Origin: Novosphingobium sp. 9
GTDB lineage: Bacteria > Pseudomonadota > Alphaproteobacteria > Sphingomonadales > Sphingomonadaceae
Reading direction: 5' to 3'
DNA length: 64,000 nt
NCBI RefSeq assembly: GCF_025340265.1
Contig: NZ_CP022707.1
Span: forward strand, 1,240,501-1,304,500
The notes beneath the pieces were generated by a model. That model had not been told where the DNA came from and searched no databases. It saw only the letters and a program-made list of their open reading frames with translations. Below, one piece after another: positions 15,245 to 32,191 of this stretch. Position 1 is the stretch's first letter. Every line of letters starts with the position of its first letter. The translations under genes were made by a program, and so were the position numbers.

Positions 15245-15270
15245 GCGCTCCATCTCACTGGCGAACAACA

Positions 15271-15299
15271 AAAAAGGCCGGGCGATGACCCGGCCTTTT
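15271..15299. terminator. Bidirectional intrinsic terminator
   Basis: AAAAAGGCCGGG and CCCGGCCTTTT (loop CGATGA) form an 11-base GC-rich stem flanked by A and T runs on both strands. It serves the DUF2721 gene and the convergent acyl-AMP ligase gene. Confidence 0.85.
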
Positions 15300-15320
15300 C
15301 GTATTTGATCAGCGAATGCC

Positions 15321-17081
15321 TCAAGCAGCGAGCGCGAAGGGCTCGATCTCACCCGAAAGGTACAGCTTCTTGGCCTTGGCACGGCTGAGCTTGCCTGAAC
15401 TGGTGCGCGGCAGGCTCTTGGGCGGCACCAGTTCGATCACGCAGTTCATGCCCGTGATCGAACGCACCTTGTCGCGGATCAGGTCGCGCAGTTCCACGCG
15501 CTTGACTGGATCGGAGACGCGGCAATGCACCAGAACCGCAGGGGTTTCCTCGCCGTTCTCCATCTCGATAGAGAACGCGGCGATATCGCCATGGTTGAAG
15601 CCCGGCAGCTGCTCCACGGCCCACTCGATGTCCTGTGGCCAGTGGTTCTTGCCGTTGATGATGATCATGTCCTTGGCGCGGCCGACGATGAACAGATAGC
15701 CATCGGTCATGTAGCCCATGTCGCCGGTATCGAGCCAGCCATCGACCATGCAGGCCGCCGTCGCTTCCGGGTCGCGGAAGTAGGAATGCATGACGCTGGT
15801 GCCACGGCACCAGACCTTGCCGATCTTGTGGTCGCCCAGAATATCGCCATTCTCGCCGCGGATTTCGACGGTCATGTCGAGCACCGGTTTGCCGCAGTTG
15901 ACGATCGCGCGATAGCGGGCCGGGCGCGAAAGGTCGCGCGGTGCACCGGAAAGGCGCTCTTCCTCAACCAGTTCGACGCGAATGCCTTCGCCCGGCGGCA
16001 TGATGGTGACGGCCAGCGTCGCTTCGGCCAGGCCATAGCTGGGCAGGAAGGCGGTCGCCTTGAAGCCTGCGTCGGAGAAGGCATTGACGAAGCTCTGCAT
16101 CACGTCCGGGCGGATCATGTCGGCGCCATTGCCGGCAAGACGCCAGCGCGAGAGGTCGAAGCGGTCCGAAACGGCGGTCTGCGTCGAGATGCGGCGTGCA
16201 CAGATGTCGTAGCCGAAGGTCGGCGAATACGAAATCGAGGTGCCCTTGTTGCGGGTGATCATGTCCAGCCATGCCAGCGGGCGGCGGGCGAAGTCCTCGG
16301 TTTTGAGGTAATCGCCCGAAACCTGGTTGGCGATGAGCGACAGGAAGCAGCCGACGAGGCCCATGTCGTGATACCACGGCAGCCACGAAACGCAGCGATC
16401 GCTCTCGATCAGTTCCATGCCATGGCTGTGCGCAGCAAGGTTCGACATCAGCGAGCGGTGGGTGACAGCGACGCCATGCGGGAATCGCGTCGAGCCCGAG
16501 GAATACTGCAGATAGCAGATGTCGTCGCCCGACAGCGCAGGCAGCTCGCAGGGCGCAGCGTCGTATGCCGCGAAATCAGCCCATGTCGCGTGGCGGCAGC
16601 CCTGCCGCTCGGCGGCGAGGCTGGTCATGGCGGCGATCTCGTCGGGGCCGACGAGCAGCATCGGGTCGGAGCTGGCAAGCTGGACGGCCAACTGTTCGAT
16701 GTAGTTGTCCTTGCCGCCAAAGCTGGTGGGCAGAGGGAGCGGCACCGGCCATGCACCGGCATAGACTGCGCCGCAGAACAGTGCGGCAAAGTCGGAGCCG
16801 GTCTCGGCGATCAGCGCGATGCGGTCGCCCGGCTTCACGCCGCGTGCGACCAGCGCATAGGCCACGGCGCGGGCATCTTCGCGCAACTGCGCGAACGTGT
16901 AGACCTTTGCCAGCGTGCCGCGCGGATCGTGGAAATTGAACCCGCGAGCGCCTTGCGCTGCATAGTCCAGCGCATCGGCAAAAGTGTCGAAATCGGCAAA
17001 ACGGCGCGTCAGTGCGTCTTCGTTCGGGGTCGCTGCCAAAGCGGGGCTCTGTTCTGCGACCAGGTTTACGGTGTCGCCCAT
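15321..17081 (-). CDS. Fatty acyl-AMP ligase (FAAL-type AMP-dependent synthetase)
   Basis: The 586-residue ANL-superfamily enzyme has the ATP-binding P-loop YLQYSSGSTRFPHGVAVTHR, SWLPWYHDMGLVGCFLS, a GLAEATLAV motif, WLDTGDMGYM and the hinge region with GRAKDMIIINGKNHWPQDIE. The YHDMGLVG and NHWPQDIE signatures fit FAALs (FadD32-like), which activate fatty acids as acyl-adenylates and pass them to ACP or PKS rather than to CoA. The gene is monocistronic with no PKS, NRPS or ACP gene nearby, so the acceptor is unknown. Confidence 0.85.
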   Translation of the reverse strand: MGDTVNLVAEQSPALAATPNEDALTRRFADFDTFADALDYAAQGARGFNFHDPRGTLAKVYTFAQLREDARAVAYALVARGVKPGDRIALIAETGSDFAALFCGAVYAGAWPVPLPLPTSFGGKDNYIEQLAVQLASSDPMLLVGPDEIAAMTSLAAERQGCRHATWADFAAYDAAPCELPALSGDDICYLQYSSGSTRFPHGVAVTHRSLMSNLAAHSHGMELIESDRCVSWLPWYHDMGLVGCFLSLIANQVSGDYLKTEDFARRPLAWLDMITRNKGTSISYSPTFGYDICARRISTQTAVSDRFDLSRWRLAGNGADMIRPDVMQSFVNAFSDAGFKATAFLPSYGLAEATLAVTIMPPGEGIRVELVEEERLSGAPRDLSRPARYRAIVNCGKPVLDMTVEIRGENGDILGDHKIGKVWCRGTSVMHSYFRDPEATAACMVDGWLDTGDMGYMTDGYLFIVGRAKDMIIINGKNHWPQDIEWAVEQLPGFNHGDIAAFSIEMENGEETPAVLVHCRVSDPVKRVELRDLIRDKVRSITGMNCVIELVPPKSLPRTSSGKLSRAKAKKLYLSGEIEPFALAA

Positions 17082-30051: not shown

Positions 30052-30113
30052 AAAACAAAAGGGCCGGCCCAAAGGCCAGCCCGAAGTTTTGGGAGAGGAT
30101 GCCTGAAAGGCAC
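30052..30113 (-). ncRNA. Anti-SD-type small RNA, unit C
   Basis: Read on the minus strand: 5' hairpin GCC-TTTCA-GGC (30111-30101), single-stranded ATCCTCTCCC core (30100-30091), AAAACTTC linker, then a terminator hairpin (30082-30061; stem GGGCTGGCC/GGCCGGCCC) and CCCTTTTGTTTT. Length is about 60 nt. The promoter has -35 TTGCAG (30146-30141), 17 bases, -10 GATACA (30123-30118). The CCTCTCCC core is complementary to Shine-Dalgarno-like GGGAGAGG. It is the most 3' of three tandem copies. Confidence 0.7.
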
Positions 30114-30117
30114 TGTC

Positions 30118-30146
30118 TGTATCGCCCGAATCGCTTAATGCTGCAA
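30118..30146 (-). promoter_or_regulatory. Promoter of sRNA unit C
   Basis: TTGCAG (-35) and GATACA (-10) are separated by 17 bases, with TTCGCAC directly upstream of the -35 box as in the other two units. Confidence 0.55.
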
Positions 30147-30267
30147 GTGCGAAATGACATTGTGCAGTCGCGAGCGATGGCGATCTGTCCCGATCGTGGG
30201 ACAGACCTAAAATTTGGAGGAGTTTTCAAAGGGAGGTCGCAAGTCGCGAGGGCATCTGCCGCAGGCG

Positions 30268-30331
30268 AAAAAAAAGGCTAGCGTAGGCCAGCCTTTATGG
30301 AAGTTTTTGGGAGAGGATGCCTGAAAGGCGC
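30268..30331 (-). ncRNA. Anti-SD-type small RNA, unit B
   Basis: Same architecture as units A and C. The 5' hairpin GCC-TTTCA-GGC lies at 30329-30319, the ATCCTCTCCC core at 30318-30309, the linker AAAAACTTCC follows, then a terminator stem AAAGGCTGGC/GCTAGCCTTT (30296-30273) and eight T. The terminator stem differs in sequence from the other two copies but keeps pairing. It has its own promoter at 30336-30364. Confidence 0.75.
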
Positions 30332-30335
30332 TTCT

Positions 30336-30364
30336 TATATGCCTGCAAGCTCGATTTTGGACAA
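30336..30364 (-). promoter_or_regulatory. Promoter of sRNA unit B
   Basis: TTGTCC (-35, 30364-30359) and CATATA (-10, 30341-30336) with 17-base spacing; TTTTTCGCATT abuts the -35 box, matching unit A. Confidence 0.6.
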
Positions 30365-30506
30365 ATGCGAAAAAGATGGATATGATTGCAAGATATGCAC
30401 TCATGAGGTGATTTTGCTGCAATCACTACGCTTTTCGGAATTGCTGTAGCTGCGAAGAAGGGAAGCGCACCGGTGCTTTGCGCTCACCTCTCCGGCGGGA
30501 CAAAGC

Positions 30507-30573
30507 AAAAAAAAAGGCCGGTCAGAAGACCAGCCTATTTGAAAGTTTTTGGGAGAGGATGCCTGAAAGGCAT
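30507..30573 (-). ncRNA. Anti-SD-type small RNA, unit A
   Basis: Minus-strand unit of about 67 nt. The 5' hairpin ATGCC-TTTCA-GGCAT lies at 30573-30559, overlapping the ATCCTCTCCC core (30560-30551); an AAAAACTTTCAAATA linker follows, then terminator stem GGCTGGTC/GACCGGCC (30535-30516) and nine T. Together with units B and C it shares an identical central segment of nearly 30 bases, while flanks diverge. Located downstream of rimO on the same strand with its own promoter. Confidence 0.75.
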
Positions 30574-30577
30574 GCTC

Positions 30578-30606
30578 TTTATGCTTGAGGTGCGCCTCTG
30601 CCGCAA
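30578..30606 (-). promoter_or_regulatory. Promoter of sRNA unit A
   Basis: TTGCGG (-35, 30606-30601) and CATAAA (-10, 30583-30578), 17-base spacing, preceded by GTTTTCGCAT. Predicted start falls at the base of the 5' hairpin. Confidence 0.6.
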
Positions 30607-30668
30607 ATGCGAAAACTTTTACGTTCTTGCAGAATTTGCATTTGCATTGGGATGCAAATTGATTCGCG

Positions 30669-32051
30669 TCAGCTGGACGTTATCGCTCCGAACAGATCAT
30701 GCTCGTCCGCATCTTCGATGATAACTTCAACGATATCACCGGCTTGCAGGTCACTGCCAACATCGCGCAGGTAGACGTTTCCATCGATTTCGGGTGCATC
30801 GGACTGCGAGCGACCCGTTGCGCCGATCTCGCCATCTTCATCCGGCTCGCCAACGTCATCGATAATGACCGGGAGCACGCGCCCGATTTTTGCCTGCAGC
30901 TTGGTGGCGCTGATAGCCGCCGTCTTTTCCATGATTCGCTCGTAGCGCTCCTGCTTGACGGCTTCCGGCACAGCGTTCGGCAGGTCATTGGCAGAAGCGC
31001 CTTCGACGGGTTCGAACTTGAACGCGCCAACCCGGTCGAGTTGTGCTTCGTCCAGCCAGTCCAGCAGGTACTGGAAATCGGCTTCGGTCTCGCCGGGGAA
31101 ACCGACCACGAAGCTGGAGCGAATGGTAAGATCGGGGCAGATTTCGCGCCACGATCGCAGACGTTCGAGAACCTTCGCCTCGTTCGCGGGCCGCTTCATC
31201 GACTTCAGCACCGAGGGCGCTGCGTGCTGGAACGGGATGTCGAGGTAGGGGGTGACGAGCCCCTCGGCCATCAGCGGGATGACCTGATCGACATGGGGGT
31301 AGGGGTAGACGTAGTGCAGGCGCACCCAGGGGTGGTTGCCTTGCGCGTCCGTCAACTGGCCAAGCTCGCGCGCGAGGTCGGTCATGTGGGTACGGACTCC
31401 GCGGCCTTTCCAGGTGCGGGTCTCGTGCCGCACATCGACGCCGTAGGCCGAGGTGTCCTGGCTAATGACGAGCAATTCGCGTGTGCCGGCCTGCACCAGC
31501 TTTTCCGCTTCACGCAACACGGCGTCGATGCGGCGGCTCGCCAGCTTGCCGCGCAGCGAGGGGATGATGCAGAACGAGCAGGCGTGGTTGCAGCCCTCGG
31601 AAATCTTCAGATAGCCGTAGTGGCGCGGGGTCAGCTTGACGCCCGCCTCGTCGTAGATCTGAGGGATCAGATCGACATAGGGTGACAGTTCGGGCGGTGC
31701 GGCATCGTGCACCGCTTCGACCACGGCCTCATACTGATGGGCACCGGTCACGGCGAGCACATCAGGGAATTTCGCGCGGATGGCCTCGGCTTCATTGCCC
31801 ATGCAGCCGGTCACGATAACACGGCCATTCTCGGCCATCGCCTCGCCGATTGCGGCCAGGCTCTCTTCCTTGGCGGAATCGAGGAATCCGCAGGTGTTGA
31901 CGAGCACGACATCGGCACCGGCATAGTCGGCGCTCATCGTGTAGCCATCGGCGCGCAGGCGCGTGAGGATGCGTTCGGAATCGACCAGAGCCTTCGGACA
32001 GCCGAGGCTCACCATGCCGACTTTGGGCGGGGAGGGGATTTCAATAGCCAT
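30669..32051 (-). CDS. rimO: Ribosomal protein S12 methylthiotransferase RimO
   Basis: The 460-residue radical-SAM enzyme methylthiolates Asp of ribosomal protein S12. Domains: N-terminal MTTase ([60 protein letters not shown] with three cluster-binding Cys), radical SAM ([20 protein letters not shown], CxxxCxxC) and a C-terminal TRAM domain ending [12 protein letters not shown] at 32051 gives the usual start; the longer frame adds 14 residues without homology. The sRNA array begins about 60 bases after its stop. Confidence 0.95.
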
Positions 32052-32191
32052 GGGATTGGCGCGCCCGATACGCGTTTTGCCCCTGAAAGTCATCAGGGAA
32101 AGGCGTGCATGTGATTCGCAACAGGCTATCCTTTGAATGCCGTTCGCGCTAGGCCCTGCGCAGGGGTTTCCAAAGTCTGGGGAATTTGCAG

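Follow-up and report, generated by a model that had tools for sequence, protein, structure and literature searches.

Three probable tandem paralogues of the small RNA SuhB in Novosphingobium sp. 9

We conclude with good confidence that three units on the minus strand of Novosphingobium sp. 9 are tandem paralogues of the alphaproteobacterial sRNA SuhB (RF00519, which also includes MmgR and SisA-D), each with its own promoter, a core predicted to repress translation at GGGAGAGG-type sites, a dose raised by siblings and a likely part in holding down catabolic genes. They lie in the window, the whole stretch of 64,000 nt that was analysed. We observed a covariance-model match, a core exposed in the folds, a covarying terminator, a conserved promoter, several copies and synteny. 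What we infer for transcription, Hfq, targets and physiological role takes the following form. The sigma-70-type promoter of each unit would make an RNA of ~57–63 nt in which a short 5′ hairpin is followed by the exposed core AUCCUCUCCCAAAA and then by a Rho-independent terminator. This core would pair with GGGAGAGG-type ribosome-binding sites and repress translation, very probably with Hfq. As siblings with mostly common control, the four copies of the genome would increase the dosage of a single seed sequence; they would likely serve mainly to keep catabolic genes down while cells grow fast on a preferred carbon source, a use reported for SuhB in strain TFA.

Reading both strands of the window, we found the three sRNA units in tandem, all on the minus strand and at distances of 218 and 242 bp. 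Each follows the same plan on that strand, with its own promoter, a 25-nt block that is invariant, an anti-Shine-Dalgarno core left unpaired and, at the end, a covarying terminator formed by a GC-rich hairpin and a T-run. Unit 1 (30509..30571, minus strand, ~63 nt) has its 5′ GCC at 30571 and its 3′ end placed in the T-run, unit 2 (30269..30329, minus strand, ~61 nt) starts at the G of GCC at 30329, and unit 3 (30055..30111, minus strand) spans ~57 nt. Exactly three copies of the 25-mer GCCTTTCAGGCATCCTCTCCCAAAA are present in the window, with no further occurrence at ≤3 mismatches and none in 100 shuffles, which confirms the three minus-strand units with an invariant block proposed in the initial annotation. 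Their terminators have 9, 9 and 10 pairs, the highest values among seven terminator-like sites between 29500 and 31200 (2.1 expected). Because the -35 and -10 boxes are 17 nt apart, the transcription start was placed at GCC. By this promoter geometry the RNAs are predicted to start at 30571, 30329 and 30111 (the G of GCC) and, with 3′ ends set in the T-run, to measure ~57–63 nt. The starts suggested earlier, 30573, 30331 and 30113, were each off by 2 nt, and the geometry replaces the earlier size of ~60–70 nt.

Against Rfam 15, unit 1 (52.0 bits) and unit 3 (54.4 bits) exceeded the cut-off of 41 for RF00519 (suhB, also mmgR; alphaR8). Unit 2, which carries the identical 25-mer, scored 34.1 bits, under the cut-off, and this counts against membership of all units. 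A fourth copy elsewhere in the genome (4.39 Mb, two contigs, searched whole) was over it at 50.4 bits and sits between a universal-stress-protein (Usp) gene and a CDC48-type AAA gene. R1, a covariance model made from these four copies, gave them 81–93 bits (93.2 for unit 1, 81.3 for unit 2), high scores being expected for sequences that built the model; the next best match in the genome reached 29.2 bits. At E ≤ 0.01, R1 had seven matches in this genome, three of them weak (26.6–29.2 bits), two of which coincide on opposite strands of one locus. Four copies are taken as real here, and the exact pattern was used for copy number instead of R1, whose per-genome counts are inflated. One weak R1 match falls in the window itself, at 15253-15349 on the minus strand (G000:C1:1255753-1255849; 28.4 bits, E 0.002), where no RF00519 match is listed. 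The remaining weak Rfam matches, among them SorY (25.8 bits, cut-off 111) and L20_leader, were rejected, being far under their cut-offs.

The units depart from the published description of the family in two respects. The 10-mer UUUCCUCCCU is said to be common to alphaR8 in the description of SisA-D (PMC12559287); in its exact form it is absent from the four copies, which all carry AUCCUCUCCC, and this counts against plain membership. An N-formylglutamate amidohydrolase gene, given there as the neighbour in most species, does not adjoin any of the four copies, whose neighbours are RimO-like, beta-lactamase-family, Usp and CDC48-type genes. Across the class, RF00519 matched 113 of 240 genomes at E ≤ 1e-5. 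Of 30 top-scoring loci from this search, 29 had the canonical core TTTCCTCCCT, the remaining one being mis-anchored; TGCA-N6-GCA was found in one of these loci and TTCGCNNTTG in two. Changed core and promoter together thus mark a sphingomonad branch of the RF00519 family, and since the core is AUCCUCUCCC instead of UUUCCUCCCU, we assign the units to RF00519/SuhB as a branch whose core has changed. Tandem triplets of the family are found elsewhere in the class as well: two genomes that fall outside the order (G541 and G413) each show three same-strand RF00519 matches within ~0.6 kb.

The folds of all three units were more stable than those of shuffled sequence (z -5.65, -2.80 and -3.62 for units 1, 2 and 3). 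In partition-function folds starting at GCC, the core CCUCUCCC, of which each RNA has one, was unpaired in 4/4 genome copies (pairing probability 0.00–0.08), and the 5′ stem formed with a probability of 0.95. For the longer core AUCCUCUCCCAAAA in unit 3 the pairing probability was 0.22. The folds of the four copies therefore show the alphaR8 plan of a weak 5′ hairpin, a single-stranded core and a Rho-independent terminator. Covariation was assessed on 72 distinct rows of 81 copies, taken from top-scoring loci and so biased to similarity. Seven of the nine pairs of the terminator helix had changes on both sides, with 99.7% of cells paired; none of 500 shuffles reached the observed covariation values, and slid versions failed. 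The suggestion that the terminator stems differ in sequence yet stay paired was thereby borne out. The 5′ hairpin did not vary among the 72 distinct copies, and this invariant helix is neither supported nor opposed by covariation. The broader proposal of a multicopy, intrinsically terminated sRNA family with an exposed anti-Shine-Dalgarno core is well supported.

Each unit has its own promoter on the minus strand, with a 17-nt spacer. That of unit 1 (30578..30615) has TTTTCGCA, -35 TTGCGG and -10 CATAAA; that of unit 2 (30336..30373) has TTTTCGCA, TTGTCC and CATATA; that of unit 3 (30118..30155) has ATTTCGCA, TTGCAG and GATACA. The initial annotation had noticed an element before the -35 box, and at ≤1 mismatch TTTTCGCANTTG indeed matches all three promoters, with six matches in the window against 0.82 expected and 0/100 shuffles with at least six. 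Further upstream, units 1 and 2 each have a palindrome with one mismatch to TTGCA-N5-TGCAA (ATGCAAATTCTGCAA at 30627..30641 and GTGCATATCTTGCAA at 30386..30400, both on the minus strand). This palindrome and the fourth genome copy go beyond what the initial annotation covered. The promoter of unit 3 is without it (five mismatches to TTGCA-N5-TGCAA), so control of the array is not fully shared.

The same signature recurs in relatives. The upstream regions were aligned on the G of GCC, 80 of 81 matches being usable and one cut by a contig end. Among 72 distinct regions, the palindrome halves are conserved at -71 to -67 (TTGCA) and -61 to -57 ((T/C)GCAA), TTTTCGCA is fixed at -44 to -37, TTGC stands at -35 and CANANAG at -12 to -6. 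Among 34 copies picked independently of model score, 28 of them absent from the first set, the palindrome (≤2 mismatches) was present in 30 and TTCGCNNTTG in 27, against 0/34 for both in control stretches 600 nt further upstream. Of 21 loci in seven further Sphingomonadaceae genera, 19 had the palindrome too. TGCA-N6-GCAA followed by TTCGCNNTTG has exactly three matches in the sp. 9 genome, namely the promoters of units 1 and 2 and of the fourth copy. A further locus, L284 (18825-18915; G000:C2, ~518,825-518,915), has a palindrome (GTTGCAAACAGTGCAAC), TTTTCGCA and ATGCAG-N17-CAATAT with no sRNA core behind; it has ATG in place of TTG and was missed by this composite pattern. The core is replaced there by a short GC hairpin and TTCTTTT, an IS3-like transposase ORF (label by eye) is nearby, and the locus is probably a decayed copy.

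The shared promoter signature suggests that most copies may answer to one regulator. The siblings might instead divide the labour: identical seeds would stand behind separate promoters, each for its own condition, and dosage would not be the point. We consider this reading rather doubtful. It fits the unit 3 promoter, which is without the palindrome, and the terminators and promoter details, which vary between copies; SisA-D of Caulobacter, moreover, have distinct expression, and their upstream alignment is reported to have no common motif, in contrast to the fixed promoter here (PMC12559287). It is opposed by TTTTCGCA, -35 and -10 boxes common to all four genome copies at fixed positions, and by a palindrome found in three of these four and in 30/34 genus-sampled copies. 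We regard dosage-amplified, mostly co-regulated translational repression as the most likely role of the units.

Sites of LysR-type regulators have the form T-N11-A. The palindrome shows this form too, a likeness by resemblance alone, and its position recalls, again by resemblance alone, the LsrB site reported for nfeR1 (TGCA-N6-GCAT, -72 to -60; PMC10746234). NtrC was rejected as regulator because the TGC-N11-GCA site given for NfeR1 (PMC10746234) misfits the spacing here, as judged by eye. As a tentative extension, a single DNA-binding protein that senses growth or carbon, perhaps an LsrB-related factor of the LysR type, might bind TTGCA-N5-TGCAA (~-71 to -57) of most Sphingomonadaceae copies and switch on 1–11 identical seeds together; the number of copies would then determine how strongly catabolism is braked at the level of translation, in the manner of catabolite repression. 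If so, this protein would provide the transcriptional input to catabolite repression that was sought in vain in Sphingopyxis granuli TFA, where transposon and affinity searches are reported to have given no transcriptional regulator (PMC6563040).

To estimate distribution, we used an exact 20-nt block, GCCTTTYAGGCATCCTCTCC. It was present in 143 of 149 genus genomes, with 1–11 copies per genome where present (mirrored control 0), and in 114 of 115 genus genomes of ≥90% completeness and ≤5% contamination. These copy numbers are lower bounds, since the exact pattern missed a variant copy (L254). This locus (G059:C56, ~1362-1380) reads as the opposite strand of a likely additional sRNA copy, whose hairpin is the variant GCCATTCAGGC. 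The exact tandem pattern was found in six named records, all Novosphingobium, and four of these have copies identical to ones in other genomes of the genus. By hand count, 14 of the 39 genomes with all matches listed had at least two copies within 1 kb on one strand, including one triplet (G048), beside which the sp. 9 genome is a further triplet. Across the order, R1 matched 192 of 246 genomes at E ≤ 0.01, and weakly outside the family (best E 2.6e-5). Homologous arrays are thus present in related genomes, as a covariance-model search had been proposed to reveal.

The neighbourhood of the tandem copies is conserved as well. Upstream of the array lies a RimO-like gene (30669..32093, minus strand; Radical_SAM, UPF0004, TRAM_2), a conserved neighbour of the relatives' tandem copies. 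Among 17 multi-copy loci, some from one genome and sp. 9 excluded, tblastn found rimO in 17/17 and cinA in 12/17. A second site lies before a cdc48-type gene; since 11 of 21 loci outside the genus share it, it is probably the older of the two. We sorted 95 distinct copies by neighbour with a loose regular expression: the GGNAACG-type terminator loop was present in 21/31 copies at the cdc48 site versus 0/35 at the rimO/cinA site. The two main sites keep separate terminator types while the 5′ block stays constant.

A beta-lactamase-family gene (PF00144; 28530..29972, minus strand) separates the array from cinA and lies ~80 bp beyond unit 3. Unit 3, or perhaps the array, could be mainly a leader or attenuator of this gene, which has the same strand and lies close by; the other triplet (L095) also adjoins such a gene, with 41% identity. 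The remaining multi-copy loci examined do not show one: 16 of the 17, sp. 9 excluded, have no match to that gene, and 12 have cinA instead. We consider a leader function highly improbable and the gene probably mere context outside the sRNA system. It is just as improbable that the units are drifting duplicates or a functionless repeat. Copy numbers of 1–11 between genomes and the probable decayed copy L284 would suit such drift; a 5′ block and promoter that stay fixed while the terminators diverge with pairing kept, and separate terminator types at the two main sites, speak against it. A CcsR-like polycistronic cluster, in which one precursor is cut into several anti-Shine-Dalgarno RNAs, would share the tandem layout and C-rich cores and can be dismissed as scarcely credible, given a terminator and own promoter on each unit, no DUF1127 gene among the five neighbour proteins scanned and an Rfam match that is RF00519.

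Candidate targets were sought by complementarity. In the sp. 9 genome, the longest complements found over ribosome-binding sites, both perfect, were 14 nt, before an MmsA-like aldehyde dehydrogenase gene, and 15 nt, before a DUF1467 gene. The duplexes of both leaders, and likewise that of candidate L175 (no Pfam match), were stronger than those of 300/300 shuffles. The other two of the five candidates, the AsnC and GH35/DUF5597 leaders, were unexceptional, with 28 and 50 of 300 shuffles as good, which counts against the overall explanation. The pattern GGGAGAGG-N3-9-ATG was rejected as a target list for sp. 9: it had 41 matches against 13 mirrored, but many are a dispersed palindromic repeat. 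This repeat, CCCCTCTCCCAACCCTCTCCCCTGAAGGGGAGAGGG, mimics GGGAGAGG-ATG sites (e.g. L157, L158 and L171 near 1501) and has three matches in the 464 kb of the sp. 9 genome examined (L271, L272, L274). With both CCTCTCCCAA and its complement, it could in principle interact with the sRNAs.

At the genus level, the 11-nt complement GGGAGAGGATG before ATG had 87 matches in 64 of 149 genomes (mirrored control 2). An ORF of at least 100 aa stood behind 59 of these and one of <100 aa behind 28. The longest match (20 nt, L254) was not counted as a target because it looks like the opposite strand of the variant sRNA copy, and the longest before an ORF of at least 100 aa was 17 nt, at an FAA hydrolase gene (L190). 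A Pfam scan covered 59 proteins, namely 57 of the 59 (without L184 and L236) together with L170 (98 aa) and L227 (64 aa). Among the families listed (25 of 50) were PQQ dehydrogenases (4), ring-hydroxylating oxygenases (4), enoyl-CoA hydratases (3), FAA hydrolases (3), glyoxalase/dioxygenase proteins (3), aldehyde dehydrogenases (2) and FAD_binding_2 (2), the members of a group often being orthologues and hence not independent. As controls, one permuted Shine-Dalgarno sequence gave 16 matches in 14 of the same 149 genus genomes, and the true pattern gave 35 matches, spread over 23 of the 142 class genomes searched (two of the matches in sp. 9 and 7 in G468). The class count (35 in 142 genomes versus 87 in 149) makes the Novosphingobium excess modest once genome size is considered. 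The evidence for catabolic targets is no more than suggestive, and the controls point to ordinary Shine-Dalgarno sequence for much of it. By analogy, mostly with the TFA precedent, catabolic genes are likely but unproven as the main targets, and we regard the repression as probably directed at them. Hexamers upstream of candidate starts were counted in the same 464 kb with crude ORF calls (GGAGAG 7 vs 1; AGGGAG, from the canonical complement, 5 vs 0). Hexamers of both core complements were raised; the idea that the changed seed tracks Shine-Dalgarno usage was dropped, the counts being too few.

The units are not a new family, and both the family and its mode of action are already known. The initial annotation had asked whether a sphingomonad version is described; it is, as SuhB of Sphingopyxis granuli TFA, and the annotation of Novosphingobium sp. 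PP1Y lists three suhB elements. Nor is a tandem arrangement in itself new, given the statement in the Caulobacter paper (PMC12559287), citing a 2016 phylogeny, that some alphaR8 copies are adjacent to each other. In the literature searched, parts of which were seen as excerpts, we did not find the core AUCCUCUCCC, the 1–11 exact copies per genome, the tandem copies beside rimO or the promoter with palindrome, TTTTCGCA and 17-nt spacer; these may be in print in the 2016 alphaR8 phylogeny or the 2018 SuhB paper by Garcia-Romero et al. This family comprises pollutant degraders, and the palindrome that most of its SuhB copies keep at a fixed upstream position offers a concrete bait with which to look for a catabolite-repression regulator. 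With that regulator found, one could ask why some species keep up to 11 same-seed copies, a question that bears on why bacteria keep redundant sibling sRNAs.

Among known systems, kinship with CcsR and cuckoo RNAs, to which the units had been likened, is rejected on layout and Rfam match, while their assignment to an sRNA family holds, the match being RF00519 (suhB/MmgR/alphaR8). CcsR1-4 and alphar14/NfeR1 do resemble the units in their C-rich anti-Shine-Dalgarno motifs and in having several motifs or copies together (PMC10253847, PMC10746234). The CcsR RNAs of Rhodobacter are described as sharing a transcript with a DUF1127 gene, from which RNase E releases them (PMC10253847), and alphar14 RNAs as having three CCUCCUCCC motifs in one RNA (PMC10746234); by description both belong to other Rfam families. 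The alphar14/cuckoo trait of three hairpins, each with an unpaired CCUCCUCCC, is not seen in the units, which have one core each. In the main text of the Zymomonas sRNA paper (PMC6970203) we found nothing on suhB. PP1Y, of the same genus, has three suhB elements on one chromosome, identified with Infernal and Rfam (PMC4059872); the likeness lies in a table count alone, given in the excerpted text without layout, promoter or function. The first-described suhB element has a short 5′ helix, a conserved unstructured sequence and its own promoter and terminator, and is multicopy in many genomes, as here; that description, in its excerpts, names no sphingomonad and no promoter motif (PMC1273637). 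MmgR of Sinorhizobium meliloti belongs to the same RF00519/alphar8 family, is ~77 nt long, depends on Hfq and is linked to carbon storage; it differs in having a single copy, which NtrC is reported to activate and AniA to repress (PMC7143759).

SisA-D of Caulobacter crescentus differ in their core (UUUCCUCCCU versus AUCCUCUCCC here), in being dispersed rather than tandem and in the sponge CrfA known in Caulobacter (PMC12559287). They resemble the units in being four siblings with a 5′ hairpin, a single-stranded anti-Shine-Dalgarno core and a Rho-independent terminator, and SisA represses its targets via an anti-Shine-Dalgarno 10-mer (PMC12559287). Dependence on Hfq and base-pairing to target mRNAs have been reported for members of the family (PMC12559287, PMC7143759, PMC6563040). 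SuhB of TFA is reported to repress thnR translation with Hfq in catabolite repression; unlike the units, it is described as one sRNA with one target (thnR), and the excerpts of that report give no array or promoter motif (PMC6563040). Like the units it is from a sphingomonad and carries the same Rfam name, it acts in trans in TFA, and its 61 nt compare with the ~57–63 nt predicted here (PMC6563040).
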